Below, one piece after another: positions 1 through 44,941 of a DNA stretch of 45,030 nucleotides. Source of the DNA: an uncultured archaeon (GTDB taxonomy: Archaea; Altiarchaeota; Altiarchaeia; IMC4; SCGC-AAA252-I15); NCBI GenBank assembly GCA_902384455.1, contig CABMCB010000100.1, forward strand, positions 1 through 45,030. The letters are read 5' to 3'. Positions within the stretch are counted from its first letter, which is position 1. Every line of letters begins with the position of its first letter. The position numbers were made by a program, and so were the translations under genes. The notes below the pieces were generated by a model. It made no database searches and was not told where the DNA came from. It was given only the letters and a program-made list of their open reading frames with translations.

Positions 1-112
1 AAGACCACCCCACACATTTTACACATAATGTCAATAGCAAAACAGTGAAAAACAGTGTGTAGACAAGGGAAAACGTGTCTTCTGAAGTGTGGGATATTCC
101 ACGGAATAGACA
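1..112. repeat. Left terminal inverted repeat
   Basis: Positions 6 to about 108 match the reverse complement of the last ~103 bases of the window. The outer ~70 bases differ by only two substitutions and a one-base indel; the inner part is looser but still ends in a copy of the 14-bp palindrome. Five extra bases (aagac) precede the match and have no partner on the right, so one end may be trimmed or carry an assembly artefact. Together with a protein-primed polymerase this marks a linear genome whose ends serve as replication origins. Confidence 0.93.
95..108. repeat. RY palindrome copy 1
   Basis: TATTCCACGGAATA, inside the left terminal repeat. Confidence 0.9.
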
Positions 113-128
113 TGAGTTTGACATTGTA

Positions 129-344
129 TCACAACTTTGGCGAGTGTTTTATACATTGTTTGAACACACAGGTGTGTGTTTTCTTTATCTCCCCCTCTTC
201 ACCTCCTTCAACGTCTTCCATACAGTGTGGGTCGTCACAATCATCAATACAGATTGGACATGGTGTATGACCACAGATAGTACATGTGGCAGACATACAT
301 TCGTCACAGTTCTTTATCTCTTCATTGACTGTGGGATATTCCAT
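129..344 (-). CDS. Small Cys-rich zinc-binding protein
   Basis: This 71-residue acidic protein is the last gene before the left end. Residues 13-41 hold closely packed Cys pairs (CDEC, CTIC, CPIC, CDDPHC) that look like a compact zinc-binding module; two further Cys follow. Its ATG lies inside palindrome copy 2 and is preceded by a good AAGGATA ribosome site, so the start is well supported. Function is unknown. It is one of roughly 25 zinc-binding proteins in this genome. Confidence 0.7.
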   Translation of the reverse strand: MEYPTVNEEIKNCDECMSATCTICGHTPCPICIDDCDDPHCMEDVEGGEEGEIKKTHTCVFKQCIKHSPKL

Positions 345-350
345 AGAATT
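337..350. repeat. RY palindrome copy 2
   Basis: TATTCCATAGAATT; on the minus strand it supplies the ATG of 129-344. Confidence 0.85.
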
Positions 351-732
351 ATCCTTGACTCGCCGTCTTGATGTTTATCTCACCTTCTGATTGTAGTGTT
401 TGCAGTATGTCTAACACACTCCGTAGTTCATTGCCGCTTGCATCGTAGAATCTGTCACCCCTTTGAAACCCTTTAGTGAATGTAGTAAGCAATGCAATGG
501 TTTTTGCGTAGGTATCTTCACGCTTGTCGTCTTGTTGACGCATATCGTATAGACTGGGGAAGTGATAGATTCTAGTGTTGAACGTTTTCCCCGTGCGTAT
601 GTCTGGCCCGATTGTTTCGCAGGGGGCAGTACGGCATTCTCTACACTCAACTTGTTGCATGCCGTTGTATACTCCACAGTGACAACACTTGTATCCGGGC
701 GCTATATACTCTGAATCAATGTATGTACACAT
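349..732 (-). CDS. Zinc-ribbon protein, unknown function
   Basis: This is a 127-residue protein with an N-terminal zinc ribbon (CCHCG at 16-20, CRECRTAPC at about 30-38) and a helical C-terminal half. It overlaps the end of the upstream gene by 31 bases, which fits translational coupling. No family is recognised. Confidence 0.65.
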   Translation of the reverse strand: MCTYIDSEYIAPGYKCCHCGVYNGMQQVECRECRTAPCETIGPDIRTGKTFNTRIYHFPSLYDMRQQDDKREDTYAKTIALLTTFTKGFQRGDRFYDASGNELRSVLDILQTLQSEGEINIKTASQG

Positions 733-905
733 AAGTCACATCCAGTGCAAACGAAGATGCCTGTTCCGTTTTCGATTCCAGCTCTGTAGTGTATGTTTGA
801 TATGGCTCCGCAACGTGGACAATGATGATGAATGTCAAGCGTCGGTTGTACTCCTAGTTTTGCTGTACATCCGTCGCCAACTTTGGGCGGTTCGTAGTAT
901 TCCAC
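702..905 (-). CDS. Small zinc-ribbon protein with GTG start in a palindrome
   Basis: The 67-residue product has two knuckles, CPRCG near residue 34 and CTGCDLC near residue 54, the usual four-cysteine zinc ribbon. The start is GTG-GAA-TAC inside palindrome copy 3, with AAAGGATA about ten bases upstream. The downstream gene overlaps its 3' end. The role is unknown. Confidence 0.65.
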   Translation of the reverse strand: MEYYEPPKVGDGCTAKLGVQPTLDIHHHCPRCGAISNIHYRAGIENGTGIFVCTGCDLCVHTLIQSI

Positions 906-911
906 AGAATA
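898..911. repeat. RY palindrome copy 3
   Basis: TATTCCACAGAATA; on the minus strand it supplies the GTG start of 702-905. Confidence 0.9.
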
Positions 912-912
912 T

Positions 913-1008
913 CTATCCTTTTAGAATCTTGTGGAGATGCCAACCGATGATAATACCAGTTGTCATCATTAGGGCGCCGAAGTAGAGTGCTTGTGCTACA
1001 GGGTTCAT
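913..1008 (-). CDS. 31-residue single-pass membrane protein
   Basis: This short gene starts with MNPVAQALYFGALMM and is one hydrophobic helix followed by a basic tail (HLHKILKG). Its ATG overlaps the TGA of the upstream gene (ATGA) and AAAAGGA lies directly upstream, which is the coupling seen throughout this operon. Several similar tiny membrane proteins occur in the genome. Function is unknown. Confidence 0.6.
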   Translation of the reverse strand: MNPVAQALYFGALMMTTGIIIGWHLHKILKG

Positions 1009-1406
1009 TCCTTTTCATCATTGTAACGGTGGTCGTGTGGCTCTTTTGCCCAATCTTCTATTGGTATACTCGAACTACACGGGTTTTCTTGTGGTAAGTT
1101 AGGTATAGGTGCCCAGTATTCAGGCTGTTCACGCGTTTCGTAGTAGTATTGATTCCCGCGTATTCCGTATGATTCGTCATACACTTTATTGTCGCCCGGT
1201 ATGACGGTTCCCCCTCTGTAATGGCCAATGAGCACGTCAGACCAGTTTTTGCTGTAGAACAGAACGTCAATGTTTACTGCGGGTCGTTCTTTTGACGTTC
1301 GAGTCCACGTGTTGGTGCTGCGTTTTAGAATGAATTCTTCGTCTACCTGTTGAAGGAAGTTGTTCATCAGTTTGAGGAGTTGTCCCTTGAATTCCTCCTG
1401 TGTCAT
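1005..1406 (-). CDS. Hypothetical protein overlapping an HTH gene
   Basis: This is a 133-residue soluble protein without a recognised domain; it is rich in Tyr, Asn and Pro in its second half. It overlaps the 3' 140 bases of the HTH gene 1267-1620 in another frame. The overlapping tail of the HTH gene is low in complexity, so a frameshift that once joined the two is possible. Residues near its start (MNNFLQQVDEEF) resemble the start of the upstream protein (MASNFLQQVHKR). Confidence 0.55.
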   Translation of the reverse strand: MTQEEFKGQLLKLMNNFLQQVDEEFILKRSTNTWTRTSKERPAVNIDVLFYSKNWSDVLIGHYRGGTVIPGDNKVYDESYGIRGNQYYYETREQPEYWAPIPNLPQENPCSSSIPIEDWAKEPHDHRYNDEKE

Positions 1407-1620
1407 TGGGTGGTATAGCCTTTCTTGTTTCTATCCCGTGTTTCTTTAGTATCCGTGATATATATCCTTGTGAAACGCCATACAGTTCTGCAATCTCTTT
1501 TTGAGGCATATCCCCTTCGTAGAATTCGATAACAGCCGCTTCGAATTCTTCAAGGCTTTTGGATATACCTTCTGTTGAGTTGAGCCGCTTGTGTACTTGT
1601 TGGAGAAAGTTGCTTGCCAT
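1267..1620 (-). CDS. Small helix-turn-helix protein
   Basis: Residues about 37-66 form a clear helix-turn-helix (QKEIAELYGVSQGYISRILK) of the type found in transposase and regulator N-termini. The following ~45 residues look disordered and overlap the next gene in another frame. The ATG follows shortly after palindrome copy 4. It could regulate the left-arm operon or bind the dispersed repeats; this is inference. Confidence 0.65.
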   Translation of the reverse strand: MASNFLQQVHKRLNSTEGISKSLEEFEAAVIEFYEGDMPQKEIAELYGVSQGYISRILKKHGIETRKAIPPNDTGGIQGTTPQTDEQLPSTGRRRIHSKTQHQHVDSNVKRTTRSKH

Positions 1621-1630
1621 GGGTATCTAG

Positions 1631-3592: not shown

Positions 3593-3782
3593 CTGTAAGC
3601 CTTTTGCACAATTCGTTGTATCGTTCTAACTGTTTTTGGAATCGACGTACGAATCGTATCTCTTGAGGTTTCAATTCTACTTTGATTCCACTTGTTGGTT
3701 CAAAGGATACACTGTAGTCTGGATATCGTTCGTCAATCTCTATCCAGGCTGCGCGTACTTGGGTGAATTGATTGATAGTCAT
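3579..3782 (-). CDS. Hypothetical protein
   Basis: I start this gene at the internal ATG (MTINQFTQ), which overlaps the TGA of the upstream Fis-like gene as ATGA; the longer frame adds residues with no support. The 67-residue product is charged and helical toward the C-terminus. Function is unknown. Confidence 0.55.
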   Translation of the reverse strand: MTINQFTQVRAAWIEIDERYPDYSVSFEPTSGIKVELKPQEIRFVRRFQKQLERYNELCKRLTDDAK

Positions 3783-4051
3783 GCTGGACACTTGTGGAAT
3801 GGGCCAGTGACTTTGACATGGCAATGTGGACAGACGTTATTCCGTGGAATATCAATCCGATGTTTCTTTGCCAAGTCACTGAGATGTTTTCTATCCATGT
3901 TCGCTTCTTTGGCAGCTTGTGTGATGTTGCCATCGTTGCGCATGAGTAGTTGTAGGACGTATTCACGTTCGAATTCGAGAACCGCGTGCGACTTGTTCTG
4001 TCTATATGAGACTGCGAAGTCGAACACGTGTTTGACGTTTACATTGAGCAT
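3779..4051 (-). CDS. Fis-type HTH plus zinc-ribbon DNA-binding protein
   Basis: From the ATG preceded by GGAGATACA the product has 90 residues. Residues ~28-63 (EYVLQLLMRNDGNITQAAKE and the helix that follows) match the Fis-like HTH at the end of sigma54 activators. Palindrome copy 6 then encodes DIPRNN in frame, and the protein ends in a zinc knuckle (CPHCHVKVTGPFHKC). It is probably a small transcription factor and one of the candidates for binding the dispersed palindrome. The longer upstream frame has no ribosome site. Confidence 0.7.
   Translation of the reverse strand: MLNVNVKHVFDFAVSYRQNKSHAVLEFEREYVLQLLMRNDGNITQAAKEANMDRKHLSDLAKKHRIDIPRNNVCPHCHVKVTGPFHKCPA
3838..3851. repeat. RY palindrome copy 6
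   Basis: TATTCCGTGGAATA, inside 3779-4051, read as IPRN. Confidence 0.9.
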
Positions 4052-4059
4052 TGTATCTC

Positions 4060-4335
4060 CTAACTTAGTGCATGTTCTCTGGTGTGTATCCGTATCTCGC
4101 CGTCTGCTTGTTCGTGGCTCACACTTTCTACGGTTAGTGTGACGGTTGTCTTGTAGAGTGTCCACGGTCCGTTTTCTGATATGGTTGAACATTCTACGAA
4201 CGTAACGTCCCTGGGACCAATGGGTCCTCTATTGAACGTCATGATGTATGATTCGATGATATCCGCAAGTGAACAACTTCCACTTGTTTCACATTGCGCG
4301 ACTGAGTTTGGTTGACGGTAGGCTCGTATCCACAT
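4060..4335 (-). CDS. Hypothetical protein
   Basis: This 91-residue protein has a beta-rich second half (WTLYKTTVTLTVESV) and two Cys near residue 15. GGACGGAATACA precedes the start. Hairpin element A lies just upstream. Function is unknown. Confidence 0.5.
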   Translation of the reverse strand: MWIRAYRQPNSVAQCETSGSCSLADIIESYIMTFNRGPIGPRDVTFVECSTISENGPWTLYKTTVTLTVESVSHEQADGEIRIHTREHALS

Positions 4336-4592: not shown

Positions 4593-4883
4593 TCAGTTCT
4601 TTATGAGTATGTCGTCCCCTCGCCGTTGCGTTTTATGTTCTTTGATGAACTGTGGACATACTGGATTCTCATGGTAGAACTTATGATTCACGTTGTCAGT
4701 GTAGACAACCTTGCCGCAATGAGGACAGGCAGTCTTTACCCACGCAGGGTTAGGTGAGAAGATAGGTTCTTTGCCTGACGTGCTACCGTAGGTGAACCCG
4801 TGTTGAATCATGCCTTCATTGGCCTGATTGGTGTTGCAGGCTATGAGGAGCAGACTAGCTATGCTTAGCCACTTGTGAATCAT
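4593..4883 (-). CDS. Lipoprotein with a C-terminal zinc knuckle
   Basis: The N-terminus MIHKWLSIASLLLIAC is a lipoprotein signal with a lipobox (LLIAC). The mature part holds CPHCGKVVYTDNVN followed by H-x2-NPVC. The same pattern is found in the cytoplasmic product of 42740-42922 at the other end of the genome, so this is a shared domain with and without export. It overlaps the 3' end of the upstream gene. Confidence 0.65.
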   Translation of the reverse strand: MIHKWLSIASLLLIACNTNQANEGMIQHGFTYGSTSGKEPIFSPNPAWVKTACPHCGKVVYTDNVNHKFYHENPVCPQFIKEHKTQRRGDDILIKN

Positions 4884-5511
4884 AGTATACCCTTAGTTTG
4901 CGAATCTCGTCACATTCTCGTTTTACTATATAGCGAACGGCGTCAACGAGTGGCGCAGATTCTCCACAAGTTCTACAGTTGATGAAAGCGACTCCGATAG
5001 GATTGAGGTGAATTGCATCACAATCGCCAAAGGCGTATTCATGGATATGTGTTGGCTTTAGTATCTCGTTTACTTCCGTTCGTATCTCGGTCAATTCCAT
5101 CTTTTTGAGTTGACTGGTAGGAACGATAAGCTTCCTGCAGTGGCAATGCAGGTTGGTGCAGTATCCTAACCTTGAGTGGAACTTTGCTGGATGTCCGCAT
5201 TCACAACGGATAATATTCTGTGGAATACCTAGGACTTGCGGTGTTGGGTCTTCTATTGACCCATCTTGGTGTCGTATAACAATATGGTATTGTTCTTCTG
5301 TTTTCCTCCCCTTCCACAGAAGTGTTTGCGTGACTGTGTCAAGTAATTGTGCGAGCCTTATCCACTCTTCTTGAACGTAGGGTGGCAGGTCTTTCCAGTT
5401 TCCGTTGAAGTCGTCAACGCATCCGTTGCGGAAGTGGACTTTCTTGATAGGAGACATTAGTCCCCTAACAACTTGAGCTTTCATACTCTTTACTGGGTAA
5501 TCATTATCCAT
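4855..5511 (-). CDS. Multi-Cys zinc-binding hypothetical protein
   Basis: This 218-residue protein has a central Cys/His cluster (CECGHPAKFHSRLGYC, then CHC) and a second C-x2-C (NCRTCGES) in the C-terminal domain. Palindrome copy 7 encodes GIPQN immediately before the first Cys cluster. GGAGGAATAGAT precedes the ATG. No family is recognised. Confidence 0.6.
   Translation of the reverse strand: MDNDYPVKSMKAQVVRGLMSPIKKVHFRNGCVDDFNGNWKDLPPYVQEEWIRLAQLLDTVTQTLLWKGRKTEEQYHIVIRHQDGSIEDPTPQVLGIPQNIIRCECGHPAKFHSRLGYCTNLHCHCRKLIVPTSQLKKMELTEIRTEVNEILKPTHIHEYAFGDCDAIHLNPIGVAFINCRTCGESAPLVDAVRYIVKRECDEIRKLRVYYDSQVAKHS
5214..5227. repeat. RY palindrome copy 7
   Basis: TATTCTGTGGAATA, inside 4855-5511, read as IPQN. 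Confidence 0.9.
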
Positions 5512-6618: not shown

Positions 6619-6870
6619 TTACCCCCGAGTATTCCGCGGAATACTGCATTGCTTACGCCGTTTGCGGCTGAGATGTTTATGCCCGTTGACGTGTTTGGAT
6701 AGAGGAATACCGGGTTCAGCAGGCTCTACCTTTTCAGGTTGTGGCGGCGCCTTTGGTTCAGGCGGCTTGATTGGTTCAGGCTCGGGCACACGGTAGTCAT
6801 TGTTGCATCCGACCCCTGTTAGTGCCGCCATGAGAAGTATTAGACGTCCCGTTCTGTGTGGAGGTATCAT
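6619..6870 (-). CDS. Small Pro-rich lipoprotein
   Basis: The signal peptide ends in a lipobox (LTGVGC). A Pro/Glu-rich stretch (EPEPIKPPEPKAPPQPEK) follows, then a basic tail that ends in palindrome-encoded SIPRN. A short Pro-rich outer-membrane lipoprotein recalls o-spanins (Rz1), but no partner i-spanin lies beside it. It could instead be a surface-exclusion or envelope protein. Confidence 0.6.
   Translation of the reverse strand: MIPPHRTGRLILLMAALTGVGCNNDYRVPEPEPIKPPEPKAPPQPEKVEPAEPGIPLSKHVNGHKHLSRKRRKQCSIPRNTRG
6630..6643. repeat. RY palindrome copy 8
   Basis: TATTCCGCGGAATA, a perfect palindrome in the 3' end of 6619-6870 and upstream of 6386-6616. Confidence 0.9.
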
Positions 6871-7863: not shown

Positions 7864-8325
7864 TTATTCCGTGGAATAGTATCCTTCGTGTATCGTAAAG
7901 TGTTTGACGTTTTCTAGTGCTTCAATGCGTCCTTTCGCCATTGGAATCAACCAATGTAGGTTTGGCATGACTGGAGGCATGGTTTCGCGGTAAGTGTTTA
8001 GTGGGTACCAGCCAACTGGTTCGTCAGGCTGACTTATTAGCTTATAGTCGGCAGACTGCGCAACTGCCGAAACATACCAGAACACTTCCCACGGTTTATC
8101 ATCGGTCTTTCCAATGAGTGTGGCAAAGCATCGCCAGTAGTCGATTCTTATTCCGGTTTCTTCGGCAAACTCACGAGACATTGCTTGTTCCGGGGTTTCA
8201 CCGGGTTCAATGTGTCCTCCAATGCCGTTGAGTTTGCCCTTTTGCCAATTGGGTCTAGCCTTGCGCACTAATAGAACCCTAGTGCGCAAGTCTGCAAACA
8301 AGAATCCCGCAACGTAGCGGGTCAT
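7864..8325 (-). CDS. NUDIX hydrolase
   Basis: The NUDIX box is complete: GGHIEPGETPEQAMSREFAE followed by ETGI, matching G-x5-E-x7-RE-x2-EE-x-G. The enzymes of this family hydrolyse nucleoside diphosphates linked to another moiety, using Mg ions bound by the Glu residues. The strand FLFADLRTRVLLVRK before the box is typical of the fold. The ATG overlaps the upstream stop (TGATG). The last codons and stop (YYSTE then TAA) are palindrome copy 9. In a phage it may clean the nucleotide pool or remove modified NTPs or NAD-type signals; the substrate is not known. Confidence 0.92.
   Translation of the reverse strand: MTRYVAGFLFADLRTRVLLVRKARPNWQKGKLNGIGGHIEPGETPEQAMSREFAEETGIRIDYWRCFATLIGKTDDKPWEVFWYVSAVAQSADYKLISQPDEPVGWYPLNTYRETMPPVMPNLHWLIPMAKGRIEALENVKHFTIHEGYYSTE
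7865..7878. repeat. RY palindrome copy 9
   Basis: TATTCCGTGGAATA; encodes the last residues and stop of the NUDIX gene. Confidence 0.9.
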
Positions 8326-8721: not shown

Positions 8722-8735
8722 TATTCCGCGGAATA
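8722..8735. repeat. RY palindrome copy 10
   Basis: TATTCCGCGGAATA, perfect palindrome, intergenic. Confidence 0.9.
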
Positions 8736-9586: not shown

Positions 9587-10657
9587 TTAGTTCGCCGAGG
9601 GGTGGTCACTTTTGCGTTCAACACCCCTTGCCCCCTTGGTAACCTCTTTATCGAACGCTTCTTGTGCCGCGTCGCCTAGCTCAATGAGCCGTTCTTGGTT
9701 GTCATCCTTGCCGCAGTCGATAGGGTAACCCTTCTTCTTTGGCCCAATGACCCGGTTCCAGTCCAGTGAACCATTGTCCAATACGCCGGCTCGAACCATG
9801 CAACCCATTAGGGCCGCGGTTTCCTTGACGTTCTCCAGTATCTTGTCCTTCTCAGTTGGAGCCGCGTCACTGTCACCTTGTGCGGGTGCTGGCCTGACCA
9901 AACGGATGTAACGGGCCGTTATCTCCTCGGGAGTACTCTTTAGCTCGGCCAGGGCGCGCATTTCAGGCTCGGTCAATTCAGTCTTGCTTTCGCCGGCCTT
10001 GAGTTCAAACACGCCATCTTTCGTCTGGATGGCCGCAATGGGCTTGTTGTCGCGCCAATGCTCTAGAACTGGCAACGGCAGCCCGCCGACCTTGAGCAAC
10101 TTACTTACCCAACCTTGAGTAATGCCAAGTGCGTCCGCAATGCTGACTTGGTTCATGCCGCCAACAGTGGCTAATTCACGCGCAAGGAATACCATGTCTG
10201 GCGCCTTGAGGTCCTTACGTTGGACGTTCTCAATGCCGTTGAGAATACGGAATTCGATGATTGTCTTGACTTCCCTAACCTCGGCTAGGATTGTGCCGGG
10301 CGGAAGGTTTGGCACCTTTGCTTTCTTGGCATGTAGGTTAGATATTGCTCGGAAGCGCCGAAAGCCGACAACTACTTCGTACGGCTGGTCAACCTTCTTG
10401 CCGGACAATGACTTGCCGTTGGTATTCCGTAGAATAATGTTGGTTATCTGGCCATTAGTTCCAATGTTCGCTTGGAACCCCTCGAAACCGGCAGACTCCG
10501 TGTCGGCCATGTCCTCAATGTTTCGTTTAGACCGCGAATTGAGGTCATAGTCGGCATATATCTTGCTAAGGTCAACGGGTTGGCTGAGTGCGGTTGCTGC
10601 ATTCTGTTGTGTTGCTGACATAGGGGTAACTTTACCTTTCGATGTATGGCTTACCAT
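9587..10657 (-). CDS. ParB/Srx-family DNA-binding protein
   Basis: This 356-residue protein has the ParB order of motifs: an N-terminal ParB/sulfiredoxin domain with the nucleotide-binding GFRRFRA (98-104), the ENVQRKDL box (143-150), and a helix-turn-helix at ~169-189 (QVSIADALGITQGWVSKLLK). The C-terminal ~150 residues are charged and divergent. ParB proteins bind palindromic sites and slide as CTP clamps. No ParA is visible, so it may act as a regulator or genome-organising protein. It is driven by its own promoter (10691-10719) and is the leading candidate for binding the dispersed palindrome. Copy 11 lies inside the gene. Confidence 0.88.
   Translation of the reverse strand: MVSHTSKGKVTPMSATQQNAATALSQPVDLSKIYADYDLNSRSKRNIEDMADTESAGFEGFQANIGTNGQITNIILRNTNGKSLSGKKVDQPYEVVVGFRRFRAISNLHAKKAKVPNLPPGTILAEVREVKTIIEFRILNGIENVQRKDLKAPDMVFLARELATVGGMNQVSIADALGITQGWVSKLLKVGGLPLPVLEHWRDNKPIAAIQTKDGVFELKAGESKTELTEPEMRALAELKSTPEEITARYIRLVRPAPAQGDSDAAPTEKDKILENVKETAALMGCMVRAGVLDNGSLDWNRVIGPKKKGYPIDCGKDDNQERLIELGDAAQEAFDKEVTKGARGVERKSDHPSAN
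10423..10436. repeat. RY palindrome copy 11
   Basis: TATTCCGTAGAATA, inside the ParB-like gene. Confidence 0.9.
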
Positions 10658-10745: not shown

Positions 10746-11003
10746 TTATTCTATGGAATCTGAGTCGTCAAGTTGGCAAGCTTCAATAGCCTGCCTTTCG
10801 CTCGCATACGGGCCGTTTGCAGGTCCGTCGGGTAAACAACCCGGGAAACAAGGCCAATAGTACCAACCCGGTTCGTTTAGTTCATCCGATAGGTCGGGTC
10901 GTTCACGTGATAGCTTGGCCGTCCGTTCGTCAACGTAGAACACTTCCGCGTTAGGTAGTGCGTGCGGGTCGGCTGCCCTTGCGGGATTAGAGTGCAAGTA
11001 CAT
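10746..11003 (-). CDS. Small phage-type accessory protein
   Basis: The 85-residue product contains EPGWYYWPCFPGCLPDGPAN followed by GPYASERQAIEAC, a pattern common to small phage and plasmid proteins of unknown role (GWYW...CFPGCLPDS...GPF...EEA). AAGGATATACGAAAC precedes the ATG. Its last residues and stop are encoded by palindrome copy 12. Confidence 0.65.
   Translation of the reverse strand: MYLHSNPARAADPHALPNAEVFYVDERTAKLSRERPDLSDELNEPGWYYWPCFPGCLPDGPANGPYASERQAIEACQLDDSDSIE
10747..10760. repeat. RY palindrome copy 12
   Basis: TATTCTATGGAATC; end of 10746-11003 and upstream of the ParB promoter. Confidence 0.85.
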
Positions 11004-11157
11004 GTTTCGTATATCCTTGTAGTGAAGTAGGGGTTAGTACCCACATTGGGTAGCGTCTACCGTTTGCCCTAGTAGGGAAGATGTACACAATGTGGGCATA
11101 GTGGCGCACACGGACCTCCCCGGTCAGCTGAACGATTGGCATTGGAATAATATTCAT
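10987..11157 (-). CDS. Small hypothetical protein
   Basis: The 56-residue product starts at MNIIPMPIVQL, where the ATG overlaps the TGA of the RadC-like gene. It is beta-rich and ends with YPMWVLTPTSLQGY. It overlaps the next gene by 17 bases. Function is unknown. Confidence 0.55.
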   Translation of the reverse strand: MNIIPMPIVQLTGEVRVRHYAHIVYIFPTRANGRRYPMWVLTPTSLQGYTKHVLAL

Positions 11158-11621: not shown

Positions 11622-11625
11622 TGGA

Positions 11626-32248: not shown

Positions 32249-32262
32249 TATTCCACGGAATA
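32249..32262. repeat. RY palindrome copy 33
   Basis: TATTCCACGGAATA, before spike gene 1. Confidence 0.9.
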
Positions 32263-33535: not shown

Positions 33536-33537
33536 TT

Positions 33538-33551
33538 TATTCCACAGAATA
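33538..33551. repeat. RY palindrome copy 34
   Basis: TATTCCACAGAATA, between the two spike genes. Confidence 0.9.
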
Positions 33552-33564
33552 GAAAGAAGTAACT

Positions 33565-35052
33565 ATGCCATACGCACCTATCAATGTTGCTGCATACACC
33601 TCTGCTTTTGCTGGTGCCATTGCTGGCATGGCTGTTTCTGGGTGGATTGTTGACCCAACGTCAGCAGACTACAACAATGCAACCCTTGTAGCGGGCGCAT
33701 TCGCTCAAGAGTTCGACACAATATGGAACAATGCTACTGCACTCAATAATCTAGAGATTGAAGCAATCACTTCAGTTGTTCAACAAGACTTTACTGGTCG
33801 AGGTCCAGGACCACTCAACAGTGCACAATTCCAAAACCCTCTCAATTGGACAGTGGCAGCCAAAGCATGTGCAGCCCTCATTCTCCAAAGCGACATCTTC
33901 TTTGCTGGCCAAGGCATCAACCCAGGTACACCCGGGGGAGGGGGACTATTACCTGTCGTTAGCGAACTAGTTTACGTCAACCAAGGGGGTTCTGACGTAA
34001 CAGGTAATGGGACTGAAGAAAACCCATTCCAAACAATAGCGCATGCACAATCTACTATTCTCGATGCATCATTTGCCAAGGCATATGGCGTTCTCATTGG
34101 TCCTGGTACGTATAATGAAGCAGTGTTACTCAAAGACTCAGTATACCTCATTGGTAGCGACCCATTATTAGTGGCCTTTGGAACATCTGTTGCATTAGGT
34201 CCAACATATACAACAGTTCCTGGCGCGGCATCAGGCATAACCAATGTCGCCTGTAATTGTCCTGTTACATTAGACTTCAATGCACTAAGTTCTACATCAG
34301 CTGATGTAAACTTCCGCAATTGTTTCATTAGTGGCAATGTTCTTGCAACTGCATTCGACACTCCTGGCGGTTCAGCGTGTAACCTAAGTCTGTTCAACAC
34401 ACAAGTATTCGCAGACTTCGACGCCATTGGATGTCAAAACAGATGGTTCAATAGTGCTCAAACTGGCGGCGGATTGTTCCACTTAGCAAGTCAAGCTAAT
34501 AACAATTCCACATTTATAGGCATTGGTGGCGGAACGGATACTAGTCTATCACTTGAAACAGTTGCTGCTGCAATAAGCACCAATATCATGAACTGCTATG
34601 CATTCAGTATGCAAGCAGGTGTTGTCACCAAGATTATAGGCGCTGGCGGAACTGTTCCAGTAGCAAATTTTGACTTTGGCTGTCTACCAGAAAACTGCAC
34701 CGTACAAGCTAATGGTACTATGGACCGACAGATGCGTATCTCGCATCAGTTTCCAAACGTCTTCCCAAACCCTACAGCCATTGGCGCGGCTGGAACTACA
34801 ACGATTGATATCGTTGTGCCAGCAGCACTCATTGGCACAACATCAATTGAAGTGATGCAATCACAATGTTCACCAGTAGGTTCAGGATGGGGAACCTTCA
34901 TTGGTCCACACAACTGTTCGCTAACATTTACCTACGAACAAGCTGCTGGCGTGCCAACGATTCACATCAATATCTACAACCCAGGTGCAGGTTTCAACAT
35001 TGCTGACATCTGTAATCTAAACTTCTTCAGTTACCTGCCACAGGTGCTGTAA
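33565..35052 (+). CDS. Spike-like protein 2, paralogue of the previous gene
   Basis: The 495-residue product repeats the N-terminal domain of 32270-33535 almost residue for residue for ~130 residues, then has a different beta-helix (VYVNQGGSDVTGNGTEENPF opening) and an extra C-terminal domain (~400-495). This pattern of conserved anchor and divergent tip is expected from tandem duplication followed by selection for a second host receptor. Palindrome copy 34 separates the two. Confidence 0.7.
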   Translation: MPYAPINVAAYTSAFAGAIAGMAVSGWIVDPTSADYNNATLVAGAFAQEFDTIWNNATALNNLEIEAITSVVQQDFTGRGPGPLNSAQFQNPLNWTVAAKACAALILQSDIFFAGQGINPGTPGGGGLLPVVSELVYVNQGGSDVTGNGTEENPFQTIAHAQSTILDASFAKAYGVLIGPGTYNEAVLLKDSVYLIGSDPLLVAFGTSVALGPTYTTVPGAASGITNVACNCPVTLDFNALSSTSADVNFRNCFISGNVLATAFDTPGGSACNLSLFNTQVFADFDAIGCQNRWFNSAQTGGGLFHLASQANNNSTFIGIGGGTDTSLSLETVAAAISTNIMNCYAFSMQAGVVTKIIGAGGTVPVANFDFGCLPENCTVQANGTMDRQMRISHQFPNVFPNPTAIGAAGTTTIDIVVPAALIGTTSIEVMQSQCSPVGSGWGTFIGPHNCSLTFTYEQAAGVPTIHINIYNPGAGFNIADICNLNFFSYLPQVL

Positions 35053-35376: not shown

Positions 35377-35390
35377 TATTCCATGGAATG
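35377..35390. repeat. RY palindrome copy 35
   Basis: TATTCCATGGAATG; holds the ATG of 35383-36033. Confidence 0.85.
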
Positions 35391-36156: not shown

Positions 36157-36972
36157 ATGACTGACTTACGCGAAACATTAGACCATTGTCCAGAATGCAT
36201 GTCCGTTGGAGAACCAACTGACAATCGACATCAACCATGGTGTTCAAAACGTGCCACGAAGATTATGCGCTGCCCTCAATGCAAGAAAGAAGGGGAAAGC
36301 AACCGCGAAGATACTGAACTAACCTGTGCATTCTGTGGCTATCAATGGTCACTAACTATTCCACAGAATATTCCTGTGCCTCACCCCTCCGGGTGTTCCT
36401 CAGCGTCCGAACACTTCGACCACTTCTTGTTTCTCGACTTCGAAACAACGGGGGACCCTGACCAAAAGCCGCTAGAAGTTGGTTGGATGCTCACTGACCG
36501 GTTCCTTGAGCCATTGATGGAATGTCAATCTAGAGTCATTCGTCAAGACCGACTCAACATGAACGACAAGATTCTCAAGATGCACACTAAGAATGGACTA
36601 CTTGACGAAGTAGTAGACTCTGTATTGAGTACTTCACTCGTGGAAAACATCATCTGTGATAGCATTCAGCCAATTGCTAGAGACAAGACTGCTCGTATCA
36701 TCATAGCAGGATTCACTGTTCACTTTGACCGTGATATCATTCACCGCGACATGCCACAATTGGATAGCTGGCTCCACTATCGCCACTTTGATGTATCAAC
36801 ATTACGTGCCGCCTATCACCATTGGGTCGAGAAGATTCCAAGCAAACGGGACCAACATCCCCATCGAGTGAAGGCGGACGTCTTAGCAAGTTGGGAGATT
36901 GCTAGGACCTTCAAACGAATGTTCGAGCATCACATGCCCAAAGGGCTCCTTGACCAAGGGGTGATATTGTGA
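36157..36972 (+). CDS. Oligoribonuclease-like DEDDh exonuclease with zinc ribbons
   Basis: From MTDLRETLDH the product has 271 residues. Residues 11-61 hold two zinc knuckles (CPEC...C and CPQC...CAFC). The rest follows oligoribonuclease (Orn): LDFETTGDPDQKPLEVGWML (D94, E96), the MHTKNGLLDEV segment, FTVHFDRD, the SWLHYRHFDVSTLRAA signature and HRVKADV with the final His and Asp. Orn degrades 2-5 nt RNA. Palindrome copy 36 and hairpin element E lie side by side in the linker between the zinc and nuclease parts. It may clear nanoRNA or act on DNA during infection. Confidence 0.85.
   Translation: MTDLRETLDHCPECMSVGEPTDNRHQPWCSKRATKIMRCPQCKKEGESNREDTELTCAFCGYQWSLTIPQNIPVPHPSGCSSASEHFDHFLFLDFETTGDPDQKPLEVGWMLTDRFLEPLMECQSRVIRQDRLNMNDKILKMHTKNGLLDEVVDSVLSTSLVENIICDSIQPIARDKTARIIIAGFTVHFDRDIIHRDMPQLDSWLHYRHFDVSTLRAAYHHWVEKIPSKRDQHPHRVKADVLASWEIARTFKRMFEHHMPKGLLDQGVIL
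36357..36370. repeat. RY palindrome copy 36
   Basis: TATTCCACAGAATA, in the exonuclease linker, read as IPQN. Confidence 0.9.
36382..36407 (+). repeat. CNNC hairpin element E
   Basis: CACCC-CTCC-GGGTG followed by TTCCTCAGCGTC and CGAACA, inside the exonuclease gene, 11 bases after palindrome copy 36. Confidence 0.8.
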
Positions 36973-37640: not shown

Positions 37641-38003
37641 ATGATAAAACTCAAAGTTGCCATAGTTAGCAGAAAGACTTCAAGCATTCACCGCACTGTC
37701 AAAGGTGGAGTAGCATCCCCTGGCGCAGTATGGGAAAGCGTTGAACTAATGAACATTGAAGAGCTTGTTCCACTTGAAGAATCAATTCAAGTTGCCAACG
37801 TTTCAGGCAAAGTCTTCTTGTGCAACGAACCTGTGAAACTAATGATAAACGACCCGGCATTGTTTGGAACCTTCAAGGCAGGGGATATCGTTACACTACG
37901 GGTTATAGCCCGAACATGTGAGAAATGTGGACTTCCACGAGTAGAAATTGTTACCAATAACGACCCACGTTGCCAATGTACTGAATACCGCTCGAATGCA
38001 TGA
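37641..38003 (+). CDS. Hypothetical protein, paralogue B, with zinc-binding end
   Basis: I choose the ATG at MIKLKVAIVSRK because it aligns with the start of paralogue A; an in-frame ATG 15 bases earlier is possible. The 120-residue product adds a C-terminal zinc site (CEKCGLPRVEI and DPRCQC) that paralogue A lacks. Function is unknown. Confidence 0.6.
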   Translation: MIKLKVAIVSRKTSSIHRTVKGGVASPGAVWESVELMNIEELVPLEESIQVANVSGKVFLCNEPVKLMINDPALFGTFKAGDIVTLRVIARTCEKCGLPRVEIVTNNDPRCQCTEYRSNA

Positions 38004-38188
38004 CTATTCCACGGAATATCCAAGCTGACCGTCTCATCCCTTGTCCAGTATGTAATGCTGCACAAGGTAAAGGATGTAAACCTACCGGTAGACCCAAAGA
38101 TGAGTTGAAGAAAAGTCATTCACACTTCGGCAGACGACTAAAACGAATACTCACACTGGGAATCCTACCAGAGGAGAAGTTTCAATGA
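38000..38188 (+). CDS. Small phage zinc-finger protein
   Basis: The first codons (MTIPRN) are palindrome copy 37. The 62-residue product has CPVCNAAQGKGC followed by a basic His-containing helix (KKSHSHFGRRLKR), the 'CPxCxAxxGxxC...HxxR' pattern common in phage and actinobacterial proteins thought to bind nucleic acid. ATGA overlaps join it to both neighbours. Confidence 0.65.
   Translation: MTIPRNIQADRLIPCPVCNAAQGKGCKPTGRPKDELKKSHSHFGRRLKRILTLGILPEEKFQ
38005..38018. repeat. RY palindrome copy 37
   Basis: TATTCCACGGAATA, codons 2-6 of 38000-38188 (IPRN). Confidence 0.9.
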
Positions 38189-38298
38189 AGTATGCGACAT
38201 TCTTCGCGCCAAACCTTATGATGGCTATCAGCTTCATAGCGTTAGGCGTGTTCGTTGTTACTGGACTGCGTAGCAAGAACGAAAGGGTCTCTCGATGA
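38185..38298 (+). CDS. 37-residue single-pass membrane protein
   Basis: The frame starts MKYATFFAPNLMMAISFIAL, one membrane helix with a short basic tail. ATGA overlaps at both ends support it. It precedes the muralytic genes and could be a small holin or accessory membrane protein. Confidence 0.6.
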   Translation: MKYATFFAPNLMMAISFIALGVFVVTGLRSKNERVSR

Positions 38299-39794
38299 CA
38301 CCAGAACAGTATGCCGCAAACTTTGGCGTTGATATTCCTCAAGTACCAATGCCCTCCGGTTACCGTCGTGCAACTGCGAAAGAGATTACCAAACCGGTTC
38401 TATCTTTTGCACGCATTGCACTTCAACATGCAACTCCTATTGGTAAACAGCAGGTAACGACTGTTACTCAACCAACAGGGAAGCATCAACAAGTCATGGC
38501 ACTCACTGAAGTGCACTATGACAATCACCCTCCGCGACCTTCCGAAGGATATAAAGCGGCAGAAGGTCCGCCGTTCCTACATCCTGGCATCTCAATGCTT
38601 GTTCCCAAACAGCAAGCAATCAATCCTTATCGCACACAGATGCCTGGACTTCCCGAAAGTCACAATGAGTTTGCGGGCTTTGGTGCAGAACTAGAAGGAC
38701 TGCGGCCAAACGAAGAAACAATCTATCGCACAACACTCTGGGCGCCAACCACTCAATCAGAAACAATCGCTCAACAAGCGCTCCAAAGTGTCAAACCTGA
38801 CGCAATTCTTGAGGTTGCTCATCTCCTCAATGAACAAGGTGACCAAACCCATGCTGCTGCACTCTTTCACCGTGCACTATCATTCCATAGAATAAATTAC
38901 ACTTCTCCAGTTTCTACCGGGTTTGGCGTTGAATGGGGCTTCGGCATTGACTATGCTGCCGTACAACAGAAACTAAACGCCCTAGGCGCGAAACCACAGC
39001 TTGCAACCGACGGTAAATGGGGACCAATGAGCAAAGCTGCATTGGTTGCCTATCAAAAGTCTAAGGGCCTAGCTGCCGACGGCATACCGGGACCAATCAC
39101 ACTCGGTTCTCTAGGTCTAGGTGCAACCGTTGCTAACCAAACTAGCGTAGCGTTACCAACCACGTCTAACGTGCCGCCAGGTGAGCTTCCAGACAGAGCT
39201 ACTCCACTAACGCCCACACAAGCAGTACAAGCATTGAAAGATGGCTACGCTCTAGTCACTGGCAAAGCTCCTACACCTGAGATATTAGACTTGCTCGTCG
39301 GGCAAACTGCCCTCGAAACTGGCAACTGGCAACACGGTATCCACAATTACAACTTCGGTAACAAGAAGTATTCAGGTGGCGACCGTAATTGGCAATTCTT
39401 CCGTTGCTCCGAGATTGTCAACGGCAAAGAAGTCTTCTACGACCCACCAAGCCCAGTGTGTAAATTCGCCGCCTACGGTTCTGCTGCCGAAGGTGCCGCG
39501 GCTTACATTCGTTCACTACAATCACGAGCCCATTGGTGGAACGGACTTCTAACGGGCACTCCAGAAGGCTTCGTTCAAGGGTTGACTACTGCGCCTAAAT
39601 ACTTCACAGCCAATCCAACCCTATATACCAAAGTGCTCAAAGAACGGGCAGGGAACTACCTCACACTCGCTCAACAGTTGGCAACACAACACGTTGCCGC
39701 TGCAACTGGGATTGGAATCGGCACCATTGGTCTTATTGCCTTGGGGATATTCCTGCTTAGGAAACCATTGGGGCTCGTGAAGGTGGCAGCATGA
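38295..39794 (+). CDS. Virion-associated muralytic enzyme (PG-binding and lysozyme-like)
   Basis: The 499-residue protein contains a TPR-like helical repeat (~155-195), a PG_binding_1 domain (~215-272; VQQKLNALGA...DGKWGPMSKAAL) and a lysozyme/glucosaminidase-like domain (~305-465) with QTALETGNWQHGIHNYNFGN holding the likely catalytic Glu. A C-terminal membrane helix (GIGTIGLIALGIFLLRKPLG) follows. It should cut the cell wall during entry or release, like PRD1 P7 in role. Palindrome copy 38 is inside the gene (SFHRIN). Confidence 0.82.
   Translation: MTPEQYAANFGVDIPQVPMPSGYRRATAKEITKPVLSFARIALQHATPIGKQQVTTVTQPTGKHQQVMALTEVHYDNHPPRPSEGYKAAEGPPFLHPGISMLVPKQQAINPYRTQMPGLPESHNEFAGFGAELEGLRPNEETIYRTTLWAPTTQSETIAQQALQSVKPDAILEVAHLLNEQGDQTHAAALFHRALSFHRINYTSPVSTGFGVEWGFGIDYAAVQQKLNALGAKPQLATDGKWGPMSKAALVAYQKSKGLAADGIPGPITLGSLGLGATVANQTSVALPTTSNVPPGELPDRATPLTPTQAVQALKDGYALVTGKAPTPEILDLLVGQTALETGNWQHGIHNYNFGNKKYSGGDRNWQFFRCSEIVNGKEVFYDPPSPVCKFAAYGSAAEGAAAYIRSLQSRAHWWNGLLTGTPEGFVQGLTTAPKYFTANPTLYTKVLKERAGNYLTLAQQLATQHVAAATGIGIGTIGLIALGIFLLRKPLGLVKVAA
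38881..38894. repeat. RY palindrome copy 38
   Basis: CATTCCATAGAATA, inside the muralytic gene 38295-39794. Confidence 0.85.
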
Positions 39795-39822
39795 ACTACT
39801 TTATACCAACTAGGGTAGGCAA

Positions 39823-40341
39823 ATGAACTTTGCAGCAATCCCACTATGGGCAAAGCTGAGTGGCGTTGGTGTAGCAGCGCTAGGCCTTCTCTGGCTTGTC
39901 AAACGGACGGGGGGACACCTACTACCAGCGCCACCAGTAAACCCACGGCTCAGTGTTGTACAAGCTGCATTGAGTCAAGTAGGTTCTAACGATAGTGCCA
40001 AGTACTGGGCCGACGTCATACCAGGCACCAACATGGGTAAAGCTAGCTGGTGTGGAGGCTTTGCACTTTGGGCACTACACCAAGCAGGTCTCGCACGCAA
40101 TTGGTTTTGGCAACTAGGCAAAAGGTTTCTCTTTCAACTGCCAATGACGAAAAGTCCGCAACCAGGGGATATCGCCTACTTCAATAACTACCAACATCAT
40201 GCGGTTGTCGGGGCAATCATTGACCCTGTAACCGTACAGCTCATCAATGGTAACGGTACGGGTGGCAAAGTATCAGTTAGCACCACACCCATGCATTCAG
40301 TGACGGCCTTCTACTCAATTGAGCCATTACTACACGCCTAA
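39823..40341 (+). CDS. CHAP-like peptidoglycan hydrolase with membrane anchor
   Basis: An N-terminal membrane helix (GVGVAALGLLWLVKR) is followed by a CHAP/NlpC-type domain: Cys in ASWCGGFALWALHQAG, His in YQHHAVVGAI, then LINGNG. These are the Cys/His of amidases and endopeptidases that cut peptide stems. It adjoins the lysozyme-like gene, so the two probably open the wall together. Confidence 0.82.
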   Translation: MNFAAIPLWAKLSGVGVAALGLLWLVKRTGGHLLPAPPVNPRLSVVQAALSQVGSNDSAKYWADVIPGTNMGKASWCGGFALWALHQAGLARNWFWQLGKRFLFQLPMTKSPQPGDIAYFNNYQHHAVVGAIIDPVTVQLINGNGTGGKVSVSTTPMHSVTAFYSIEPLLHA

Positions 40342-41842: not shown

Positions 41843-41856
41843 TATTCCACGGAATA
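41843..41856. repeat. RY palindrome copy 39
   Basis: TATTCCACGGAATA, three bases before the ATG of 41859-41990. Confidence 0.9.
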
Positions 41857-41858: not shown

Positions 41859-41990
41859 ATGAAGTGGATTGATAAACTGATACTAGATACCGAAAAGAGT
41901 GTGGGCGGCTTCGGGCCAATGTTTCTACTTGTGGTAATATGGACCTGCAGCTGTCTTGAACTCATGAAATGGATGGGAATAATACCATGA
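41859..41990 (+). CDS. 43-residue single-pass membrane protein
   Basis: The frame starts MKWIDKLILDTEKSVGGFGP and continues in one membrane helix (FLLVVIWTCSCL). Its ATG is three bases after palindrome copy 39 and its stop overlaps the next start (ATGA). It may help lysis. Confidence 0.6.
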   Translation: MKWIDKLILDTEKSVGGFGPMFLLVVIWTCSCLELMKWMGIIP

Positions 41991-42607
41991 CTCTTCAAAT
42001 ACAACCTGCATTCAATGGCGCCCGTGGTGTTGACACGATTCTCACGTTCAATGCTGAACGCGCCAAAACTATCAAACAAGCGGGCTTCAACTTCGTTGTT
42101 CGTTACCTAGGCAGCCTAACGAAGAATGAACGGGACATAATCACTGGCGAAGGTCTTGGCCTACTCGCTGTTACCTACTCACGACGAGCCGGCTGGATTC
42201 CAAGTGCTGACCTTGGTACCGCCGACGGAGCCCACGCAGTAATCAATGCGGACAACGCCGGTTTACTACCAGGAATGTCACTATACATTGACATTGAAGG
42301 GCCTAGCGTGCACGGTGATTGTATAAGCTACATCAATAACTGTGCAAGCAAGATGCAATCAGCTGACTTCAGAGCGGGTATGTACGTTGGCTGGGGGATA
42401 CCGCTCAACTCATACCAACTTTACCATGCCCTTAGAGTAACAGGGTACTGGCACTCAGTCTCATGGGAACCGCCAGTTGATGTTCGCGGCTACCAGATGA
42501 CGCAAGAATATCCACCAAACCAACACGTTGCCGGGTTACAAGTGGATAAGAATCACATTGAAACTGACGGGCGAGGGGATACGCCACACTGGTTGATTGA
42601 TGTGTGA
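41987..42607 (+). CDS. DUF1906/Rv2525c-like glycoside hydrolase-like protein
   Basis: From MTLQIQPAFN the 206-residue product follows the DUF1906 pattern: GVDTILTFNAERAKTIKQAG, FVVRYLG, LLAVTYSRRAGW, LYIDIEGP and YVGWGIP. The family is a TIM barrel related to GH25 lysozymes and is often found as phage lysin modules. The Asp/Glu in IDIEG are the likely catalytic acids. It is probably a lysin. Confidence 0.8.
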   Translation: MTLQIQPAFNGARGVDTILTFNAERAKTIKQAGFNFVVRYLGSLTKNERDIITGEGLGLLAVTYSRRAGWIPSADLGTADGAHAVINADNAGLLPGMSLYIDIEGPSVHGDCISYINNCASKMQSADFRAGMYVGWGIPLNSYQLYHALRVTGYWHSVSWEPPVDVRGYQMTQEYPPNQHVAGLQVDKNHIETDGRGDTPHWLIDV

Positions 42608-42933: not shown

Positions 42934-42947
42934 TATTCCATGGAATA
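42934..42947. repeat. RY palindrome copy 40
   Basis: TATTCCATGGAATA, perfect palindrome, before the S53 protease gene. Confidence 0.9.
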
Positions 42948-42953
42948 AAACCA

Positions 42954-44108
42954 ATGAAGTGCCGCTCATACATCAAACACCCTAGGTTCCGCAAAAACAT
43001 AACCTCTTCACAGTTCACACCTAAACAACTAGCGGCATTCTACGGATTCCCGCCCAATACTACAGGTATTGGTAAGAAAGTTGCCGTTATCGAACTTGGC
43101 GGCGCCTACAACCAAGGTGACCTTGATACGTACTTCAAGAGCCTAGGCCTAACTGTAAAGCCTGTTGTGTTCCACTCTATCGACGGAGGGCAGAACACTT
43201 CAGACGGACCTGATGGCGCCGACGGTGAAGTCATGCTCGACCTCTGTGTCATTGGTGCAATGGCGCCAGGTGTTGAGATGCATTGCTACACAGCACCCAA
43301 CACTGACCAAGGATTCCTTGACGCCATAAACCAAGCAATCACCGACAAGATGGATTGTATCAGTATCTCATGGGGCGCACCCGAAGACCAATGGAGCGGT
43401 CCCATCGTTACTGCATTCAATGCTGCCTTTCAAAAGGCTGGTGCTGCGGGTATCACGGTCACTGTTGCTGCTGGTGACAATGGTTCTACCGATGGCGAGA
43501 TTGGAAACCATGTTGACTTCCCAGCAAGCTCGCCCTTCGTCCTTGCTTGTGGAGGTACCAGTGTTCTAAGCGTTTCACCTGTGAATGAAGTTGTTTGGAA
43601 CGACGGAAGCGCTGGCGGTGCAACAGGTGGCGGTGTTAGCGGTGTACTAGGCTTACCCACGTGGCAATCAAAAGCAAACGTGCCTGGAGGTAGAGCTAGA
43701 GGAGTACCAGACGTAGCCGGCAATGCAGACCCAAACACTGGTTGGATTATCATGATTGACGGGCAACAATACGTCATTGGCGGTACCAGTGCCGTTGCTC
43801 CAATGTGGGCCGCTCTAGCCGCCTGCCTAAGTCAGGTTGTTGGTAACGTTGGATTCCTGAATCCCTTCCTGTATAACCAAGGGGGTTGGGCACGTGACAT
43901 CGTCTCAGGAAACAATGGGACTTACACTTCACGCGTGGGTTGGGACGCATGTACTGGCAATGGCGTTCCAATTGGAACCAAATTGCTTGCAATGCTACAA
44001 CCAACAGTACCACCCACGCCACCTACGCCACCCACACCGCCCAAACCAACACAACACACCATTGTTGTCACTGGCTCTATCACAGTTGACGGCAAACCCG
44101 TCACATAA
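42954..44108 (+). CDS. S53 family (sedolisin/kumamolisin-like) serine protease
   Basis: The 384-residue protein contains the S53 catalytic residues: E92 and D96 in DGEVMLDLCV, the oxyanion D175 in VAAGDNGS, and S279 in GGTSAVAPMWAAL. The calcium-binding region near residue 315 (ARDIVSGNNG) is present. The usual ~180-residue pro-domain and signal peptide are absent, so it should be active as made. A Pro/Thr-rich linker and a short beta tail close it. Sedolisins cut at acidic pH and are common in soil bacteria; as a phage gene, between lysin and holin, it may cleave host envelope proteins or virion precursors. Palindrome copy 40 lies upstream. Confidence 0.9.
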   Translation: MKCRSYIKHPRFRKNITSSQFTPKQLAAFYGFPPNTTGIGKKVAVIELGGAYNQGDLDTYFKSLGLTVKPVVFHSIDGGQNTSDGPDGADGEVMLDLCVIGAMAPGVEMHCYTAPNTDQGFLDAINQAITDKMDCISISWGAPEDQWSGPIVTAFNAAFQKAGAAGITVTVAAGDNGSTDGEIGNHVDFPASSPFVLACGGTSVLSVSPVNEVVWNDGSAGGATGGGVSGVLGLPTWQSKANVPGGRARGVPDVAGNADPNTGWIIMIDGQQYVIGGTSAVAPMWAALAACLSQVVGNVGFLNPFLYNQGGWARDIVSGNNGTYTSRVGWDACTGNGVPIGTKLLAMLQPTVPPTPPTPPTPPKPTQHTIVVTGSITVDGKPVT

Positions 44109-44233
44109 CATTAACCCGGTACCTCTGGCCTGCGAGCTAGGGGCTAAGTCGTACGCGCTAGGCAAGCAAGAGTCTCCCCCCCGACTCTGGGCTCCCCGAA
44201 AGTATAGAGCCGGAACTTTCTCAAGAGTGACCA
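44109..44233 (+). ncRNA. Structured non-coding stretch near the right end
   Basis: This 125-base gap holds several small stems in a row: GAGTC...GACTC around a C-run, GGCTC...GAGCC around CCCGAAAGTATA, and a larger pairing of GCGAGCTAGG with CGCGCTAGGC-like sequence. It is too compact for a gene and no tRNA T-arm is present. It may be a small RNA, an mRNA leader, or a packaging-type RNA. Confidence 0.35.
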
Positions 44234-44449
44234 ATGAGGATAACTAACAAGGTGACACGCGTCGAACAATGTACCTGTGACCACACTGATTGCTCAGAAG
44301 TCAAAGATGTTGACCACAACATGGTCGCGCCAAAGGACTGGACGCAAATATCAGACCTCCTAGGAGCAAAAAACTACCACTTGTGTCCAGTGTGTTGGAA
44401 GAAACTACTGGAATTCTTCAAGAATCCAAAGGCGAAGGAGAAAGTATAA
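44234..44449 (+). CDS. Small zinc-binding protein
   Basis: The 71-residue product has CTCDHTDC near residue 13 and LCPVCWKK near residue 50. It couples to the holin-like gene by TAATG. Function is unknown. Confidence 0.55.
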   Translation: MRITNKVTRVEQCTCDHTDCSEVKDVDHNMVAPKDWTQISDLLGAKNYHLCPVCWKKLLEFFKNPKAKEKV

Positions 44450-44853
44450 TGGTAAGCTGGAAAACGACCGTAGCAGGAATCATCGCAGGAGCAATTCCAA
44501 TACTTCAAACAATAAGTGGTTCACTGCAAGTTGGGGGGCACATAAACTGGTATCAGATTGCCTTCGGCCTAGCTATTATGGTGCTAGGTGTGTTCGCTAA
44601 AGACATTGGCGTTCCCCCAGCGGCACTTGCAATCATATTCACACTGTCAATCCTCAGTCCACTAACAGTTGCATGCTCAAGTGGTATCAAAAACACAATT
44701 GGCGCAACCTGCCCGGCCAATGCAGTGTGTGACCAGGTTGACTTTGGTTACGGAGTGTTCACTGCCTGTCTATCACCCAGTGATATGCCAAAGTTACAAG
44801 CTGCTGCCGCTCAAAGTAGAGCACGAATCACACAAGAAGACGCGGGAAAGTAA
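44449..44853 (+). CDS. Holin-like membrane protein with lipobox-like tail
   Basis: From MVSWKTTVAGIIAGAIPILQ the 134-residue product has two membrane segments and the start pattern (WKTTVAGI...W..IAFGLAIMVLGVFAKD) typical of small phage holins. A third hydrophobic stretch ends in PLTVACSSG, which looks like a lipobox, followed by a Cys-containing periplasmic domain. It may be a fusion of a holin to a lipoprotein-like domain. It is the last gene before the right repeat. Confidence 0.65.
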   Translation: MVSWKTTVAGIIAGAIPILQTISGSLQVGGHINWYQIAFGLAIMVLGVFAKDIGVPPAALAIIFTLSILSPLTVACSSGIKNTIGATCPANAVCDQVDFGYGVFTACLSPSDMPKLQAAAAQSRARITQEDAGK

Positions 44854-44872
44854 CCCACACTTCGACACACAG

Positions 44873-44912
44873 TCAAGAGCCCTCGCGACACACGGTCCCG
44901 GGGGCTTCCCTG
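44873..44912 (+). terminator. Possible terminal hairpin
   Basis: AGCCC and GGGCT can pair around a GC-rich loop just after the last gene. There is no clear T-tract. It may end late transcription before the terminal repeat; support is weak. Confidence 0.3.
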
Positions 44913-44927
44913 TATAAAAATCGTGAC

Positions 44928-44941
44928 TATTCTATGGAATA
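44928..44941. repeat. RY palindrome copy 41
   Basis: TATTCTATGGAATA, inside the right terminal repeat. Confidence 0.9.

Follow-up and report, generated by a model that had tools for sequence, protein, structure and literature searches.

The palindrome array of a linear virus contig

The window analysed here, by which I mean the whole 45,030-nucleotide linear virus contig CABMCB010000100.1, ends in inverted terminal repeats of about 115 base pairs (bp), an imperfect one on the left (6-119) and its counterpart on the right (44917-45030), and is transcribed leftward in its left arm and rightward in its right arm. Dispersed over its length are copies of a 14-bp palindrome, TATTC-YRYR-GAATA (exact form TATTCYRYRGAATA). 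Its genes include one for a ParB/Noc/KorB-type protein (P0001, 356 amino acids; 9587-10657, minus strand), the putative binder of the palindromes, and one for a family-B DNA polymerase (polB, 747 amino acids; 14682-16925, minus strand), recognised by profile matches, which defines the virus group.

A pattern scan of the window finds 29 exact copies of the motif, the first at 95 and the last at 44928-44941, and none in 100 dinucleotide shuffles of the same sequence. Ten further copies have one arm mismatch and two have two arm mismatches, the latter (18765-18778 and 19108-19121) both retaining TTC..GAA; for copies with a YRYR centre the shuffles average 0.03 at up to one mismatch and 0.92 at up to two. 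The resulting total of 41 is that of an earlier sequence-only reading, which had divided it differently, into 39 close copies and 2 with a changed base. The set leaves out one site with two mismatches and a YRYR centre (25790) and, among sites with other centres, one with a single mismatch (2664) and 11 with two. The centre is YRYR in 29 of 29 exact-arm copies, and over all 41 the most frequent centres are CACG (11), CGTG (8) and CACA (5). Gaps between copies average 1121 bp (minimum 242, maximum 2962) with a coefficient of variation (CV) of 0.58, a spacing more even than uniform placement would give (P = 5e-5 for a CV this low, P = 0.027 for a maximum gap this small). One copy lies near the inner edge of each inverted end, at 95-108 on the left (TATTCCACGGAATA) and 44928-44941 on the right (TATTCTATGGAATA), both exact. 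The sequence-only reading had described an alternating centre, about one copy per 1.1 kb with no gap above 3 kb, one copy per terminal repeat and a density beyond chance, and in all these respects it was right: the palindrome array is confirmed as real and not due to chance.

One short sequence in many copies might be a copied repeat element or a transcription terminator, an idea to which I give hardly any credence: conservation is confined to the 14 bp (less than 0.2 bit of information per flanking position), the centres vary only as YRYR, and the two terminal-repeat copies match in their arms while differing in centre and flanks. Identity with a repeat element was rejected because the flanks are not conserved. 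The palindromes might also be sites of a host DNA-binding protein (a host Noc or ParB, or a nucleoid protein) exploited by the virus, and the core that they have in common with Noc and ParB sites would fit this; however, all exact matches in the window's own 2.4-Mb assembly (103 contigs, and perhaps not from the host) fall in this contig, and I hold such an origin to be very improbable. Searches for both Rfam RNA and tRNA identity of the palindromes led to rejection of these candidates.

It had also been stated that the palindrome is not a known phage element. A literature search of a partial library found no publication with this sequence or layout, and to that extent the statement holds; as a class, however, dispersed palindromes are known, from the cluster O mycobacteriophages (34 in Corndog, PMC4351075) and from phiC31 (15 copies). 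Cluster O is the closest known case. According to PMC4351075, these phages carry more than 30 dispersed 17-bp palindromes, TGTTCGG-N3-CCGAACA, whose function is left unexplained; like those of the window, they are intergenic as well as coding, lie mostly away from promoters and accompany a ParB-like protein. They lack parAB and an integrase, and in the window neither a ParA nor an integrase was recognised in the 69 of 82 ORFs scanned with Pfam. They differ from the window in the palindrome sequence and its odd spacer, in being tailed phages of the terminase type and, in Firecracker, in their irregular spacing.

Placement of the sites and selection on the motif

Positions relative to genes refer to hand-chosen open reading frames (ORFs), not to gene-finder output, which cover 90% of the window. 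Of the 41 sites, 18 are wholly inter-ORF, a class that makes up 8.3% of positions (P = 1e-9). For 31 of the 41 the nearest ORF end is no more than 60 bp away, which is the case for 31% of positions. Exact intergenic copies are found at 898-911, 8722-8735 (with a CGCG centre), 11871-11884, 13506-13519, 14219-14232, 26478-26491, 27166-27179, 28952-28965, 29995-30008, 32249-32262, 33538-33551, 41843-41856 and 42934-42947, and an intergenic copy with one mismatch at 14523-14536. Four copies make in-frame gene ends, such as the exact one at 7865-7878 (YSTE-stop); one-mismatch copies at 13186-13199 and 23088-23101 lie at a gene end, and the exact copy at 6630-6643 at overlapping ORF ends. One-mismatch copies precede the ParB-like gene by 89 bp (10747-10760) and polB by 5 bp (16931-16944), and the exact copy at 20389-20402 adjoins a promoter-like TTGACA-17-TATGCT site (20408). 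Other one-mismatch copies are at 337-350, 19415-19428, 21617-21630 and 35377-35390.

The nearness of so many sites to ORF boundaries would also suit the operators of another phage repressor or global regulator, acting by repression or as transcription roadblocks. Two minus-strand genes encode candidate binders of this kind, a helix-turn-helix (HTH) protein with a Sigma70_r4 match (1267-1620), 10 bp upstream of which sits the exact site 1631-1644, and a Fis-type HTH_8 protein (3779-4192). The chief alternative is a repressor that has numerous operators, since phiC31 carries a 14-bp palindrome, of another sequence than that of the window, in 15 dispersed copies, and its sparse annotation names no ParB-like gene. 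I take the phiC31 palindromes to be the conserved inverted repeats bound by its repressor, although a literature search found no paper to confirm this. The cluster A stoperators are likewise numerous repressor sites spread across a phage genome (PMC9283540). Stoperators, however, are asymmetric and oriented with transcription (PMC4351075), whereas the palindromes of the window are symmetric and fall outside that definition. The repressor explanation is further weakened by sites that lie well inside coding regions or within the two terminal repeats, by the lack of an integrase in the 69 of 82 ORFs that were scanned with Pfam (PHROGs were run on 20), and by sigma70-like promoters, which are not enriched near the sites (5 vs. 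3.6 expected, P = 0.28), though this consensus may not be that of the host. I regard it as possible, but rather unlikely. The same promoter count led me to discard the idea that the palindrome is itself a promoter element.

Between 11871 and 14580 on the minus strand, three intergenic copies of the palindrome are followed by an AAAGGG..GGTT-like sequence and a TATAAT/TATATA-like box; this module occurs at 11871, 13186 and 14523, with a looser version at 14219, and suggests a repeated promoter cassette.

Within coding sequence, motif-compatible peptides are spelled by the exact motif in 11 of 11 cases over two of the three reading frames, where codon usage predicts 0.067. The motif is under DNA-level selection. 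Exact copies read IPRN at 2397-2410 (ORF 2095-2463) and 3838-3851 (the HTH_8 gene), IPQN at 5214-5227 (ORF 4855-5511) and 36357-36370 (an exonuclease gene), ILRN at 10423-10436 (the ParB-like gene), LFRGI at 14979-14992 (polB), VFRGI at 18128-18141 (ORF 17612-18376) and IFCGI at 23952-23965 (ORF 23939-24964). Other coding copies are the exact ones at 20892-20905 (ORF 20446-20958) and 38005-38018 (ORF 38000-38188), and a one-mismatch copy at 38881-38894 in ORF 38295-39794, which has a peptidoglycan-binding domain.

As all 11 peptides are spelled by the motif, the peptide can be used as a proxy for the site, and a DNA site becomes readable from protein sequences when genomes are out of reach. 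I used the peptides of homologous proteins for the check on conservation because no close-relative nucleotide sequence was reachable. Two scans of GTDB contigs yielded no nucleotide relatives, nor did the overlapping sets of 28 genomes of the phylum, 100 kin genomes and 393 kin genomes; in IMG/VR, no relatives were found by polB alignment, terminal repeat or ParB alignment, a single polB query returned only one fragment (L005, 37% over 57 residues), without the motif, and an exact-motif scan gave none with more than 3 copies at up to one mismatch among the 120 loci listed. At the polB site 14979, all 51 of the close sequences (P0002-P0052, its own included) have [LIV]F[RHC]G[IM]; the third position is R in 45, H in 5 and C in 1, all encodable by a YRY codon, and the last is I in 36 and M in 15, where M corresponds to a GAATG arm variant that is also present in the window. 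A compatible peptide is found in 0 of the 69 distant polBs listed, where the residue preceding F is R, and three distant polB loci (L007-L009) show no dispersed palindrome. At the site in the ParB-like gene, ILRNT is kept in 74 of 80 homologues, its own included. This peptide conservation supports conservation of the sites themselves.

Sites for packaging, recombination, replication or a nuclease would agree with the copies in both terminal repeats and the even spread over both arms, and among the gene products are a RadC-like protein, a KaiC-like ATPase and an exonuclease of the RNase_T type. Some 40 packaging signals would be unusual, however, coding and intergenic sequence carry copies alike, and none of these is known to use dispersed palindromes of 14 bp; a role in DNA processing therefore seems improbable to me.

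A ParB-like protein as candidate binder

The ParB-like protein matches ParB-like families of PHROGs, and in a search of the PDB its only match is Noc, whether the profile or the single sequence is used. Its AlphaFold2 model has a pLDDT (predicted local distance difference test) of 79, and 29 of the 29 Foldseek matches at E <= 0.001 are ParB, Noc, KorB or Spo0J. The top VIA Z is that of KorB (8qa9; Z 13.7, root mean square deviation 4.4, 186 aligned), with several ParBs in a tie, and chains of the DNA-binding domain alone give middling values (Noc 7.5, KorB 5.6). An HTH DNA-binding domain aligns to the DNA-binding region of Noc, and the nucleotide-pocket motifs G-F-RR and ENxxR are kept, with G98, R100, R101, E143, N144 and R147 at 0.99-1.0 of 79 sequences. 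In the recognition helix Q181 is invariant (79/79), at a position where Noc also has Q. By predicted fold and motifs, the protein belongs to the ParB/Noc/KorB family of cytidine triphosphate (CTP) clamps and would itself be a putative clamp.

The motif of the window, parS and the Noc-binding site (NBS) have TTC-N4-GAA in common, in the same register. From this core, common to ParB and Noc sites, and from the use of dispersed sites by Noc and KorB, I infer that the ParB-like protein binds the palindromes. A link to the ParB-like protein had been suspected before; fold, similarity to Noc and the shared core speak for it, while the role as binder is itself a prediction.

Noc is the closest solved sequence relative of the protein. 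The Noc/NBS system of Bacillus resembles the window in combining a ParB paralogue with palindromes that are scattered round the genome and have a TTC-N4-GAA core (PMC8429893 and PMC7383237). The 16-bp NBS, TATTTCCC-GGGAAATA, is nevertheless not matched, as only the core and mostly a C/G next inward agree and the outer positions and the dyad differ. For the N-terminal, membrane-targeting amphipathic helix of Noc the model shows no counterpart, though residues 1-22, where no helix is predicted, are a low-confidence region (pLDDT < 50). Within residues 1-25 many homologues have a short KGKVTxM stretch in common, in a tail that is otherwise variable. KorB of RK2, a ParB-family CTP clamp that serves as a long-range repressor (PMC11790492), resembles the predicted clamp of the window in that its P-motif is a variant one (with A where the window protein has F), but its operator OB differs in sequence from the window motif. 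Its partner KorA was not recognised in the ORF scans of the window, in which no search was aimed at KorA. ParABS systems differ in that parS clusters near one locus, whereas the sites of the window are spread over 95-44941.

I consider it somewhat probable that the 41 palindromes serve the ParB/Noc/KorB-type clamp encoded by the virus itself as nucleation (loading) sites, from which it would spread and coat, silence or organise the linear genome. A dimer of the ParB-like protein would nucleate at each palindrome, likely close with CTP and slide, in the manner of Noc and KorB. As ParB clamps, once closed, run off DNA at open ends (PMC8367383), dense loading is proposed to keep the genome covered: closely set sites could replenish the clamps lost at open ends and so maintain cover on a linear, end-capped molecule. 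The outcome would be genome-wide silencing, transcription control or compaction, and not ParA-driven segregation, which is less likely because no ParA family match above the cut-off was recognised in the 69 of 82 ORFs scanned with Pfam; the KaiC-like ATPase (19447-20388) has a CbiA match that stays below the cut-off (E 0.008). A more tentative extension is a CTP-clamp chromatin, in which a ParB-family protein with a GFRR motif and a parS-like site every ~1.1 kb would clothe a whole linear, protein-capped genome, and which would explain the cluster O palindromes as well. If the protein does load here, phages would be a third setting of genome-wide ParB-type CTP clamps, after chromosomes (Noc) and plasmids (KorB), with a site density above that of any known case, and the purpose of the cluster O repeats, a question open since 2015, would have a testable answer.

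Several observations weigh against clamp loading at the palindromes. No Pfam family, ParB included, matches the protein at E 1e-3, and its identity as a ParB comes only from PHROGs, the PDB and the fold. In the P-motif, GFRR, F replaces the glutamate of the canonical GERR in 78 of 79 sequences; KorB functions with alanine at this position (PMC11790492), and Caulobacter ParB E102A binds CTP and closes, without hydrolysis (PMC8367383). The recognition helix is 92.5% conserved, but a C-terminal stretch (285-318) is equally so. The two permissive lysines of Noc are absent (L187 and G/S192 here), its fourth specificity residue (R) is not alignable, and the base read by its Q (A, position 1) is T in the window motif. 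The shared core counts as support and not as proof, because agreement in a three-base half-site is expected at about 1 in 64 by chance. There are the two other HTH genes of the window (1267-1620 and 3779-4192), and the peptide conservation may have further causes in common descent and in constraint on the proteins; in the exonuclease, IP[RQ]N is kept in only 4 of 16 close sequences (its own included), the four whose N-terminal zinc-ribbon region is of the same type.

The survey of other phages adds to these objections. In a blind scan for dispersed palindromes over 11 records with a ParB/Noc-like gene (the window included; Taranis and Milano in part), many copies were found only in the window and in Firecracker, and the rule that a ParB-like gene predicts dispersed palindromes failed. 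From Firecracker, 34 copies of the cluster O palindrome were recovered blind, at a spacing CV of 1.04 (0.58 in the window), and the window motif has 0 copies there. The best palindrome of Hedwig has 14 copies where 1.9 are expected; a CGTCG-N4 signal in this phage, stronger under a simpler expectation, fell with k-mer counts. Nothing comparable was seen in Adler, MagicMan, Dogfish, Maja, Taranis and Elesar. The Agrobacterium phage Milano (L023; 18500-68000 only) has only nine copies of TACAA-N5-TTGTA (42972-54409), and the Aphanizomenon phage Yong-DA (L022) only five dispersed copies of GTTCAG-N4-CTGAAC. Among three records whose annotation names no ParB-like gene, lambda and WheeHeim have zero palindromes, whereas the 15-copy palindrome of phiC31, TACTCACGTGAGTA, also resembles parS. 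In the window itself the blind scan shows TATTC-type arms alone to be frequent, and tblastn found no relatives of the ParB-like protein in named phages or plasmids. The Milano palindromes lie downstream of gene 39470-40237, whose annotation is nucleoid occlusion protein; in Yong-DA one palindrome is inside the ParB gene, which adjoins ParA.

Polymerase, virus group and other genes

The polB product matches a phage DNA polymerase family, with Pfam DNA_pol_B_2 just under the cut-off, and its relatives in named phages are from small Microbacterium, Rhodococcus and Streptomyces phages at 25-30% identity. The Streptomyces tectivirus WheeHeim resembles the window in its family-B polymerase (27% identity), its minus-strand left arm and the position of polB near the point of divergence, but has only 18 kb and lacks the palindrome. 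Replication by polB is probably protein-primed, because of these phage relatives, WheeHeim being a tectivirus, and the terminal repeats. In the protein database 50 further polymerases have at least 65% identity, among the 120 matches listed of 1475, and the virus therefore belongs to a distinct, environmental group.

The assembly bin yielded no 16S, and no host is named for this reason. Because no related polB occurs in the other 28 of the 29 genomes available for the phylum of the bin, the virus may have been binned with the wrong host, the assembly then not being that of the true host; a set of 393 kin genomes, which overlaps the phylum set, has no related polB either. One ParB homologue carries the label Nitrospiraceae.

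The KaiC-like ATPase has weak UvsX- and Sak4-type PHROG matches. The RadC-like JAB protein is encoded at 11154-11663, and the same virus also has genes for a subtilase-family protease (42954-44108) and an Rv2525c-like glycoside hydrolase (41969-42607). At 32270-35052, two adjoining genes, apparently paralogues, show weak matches to the phrog_4577 tail-protein family.

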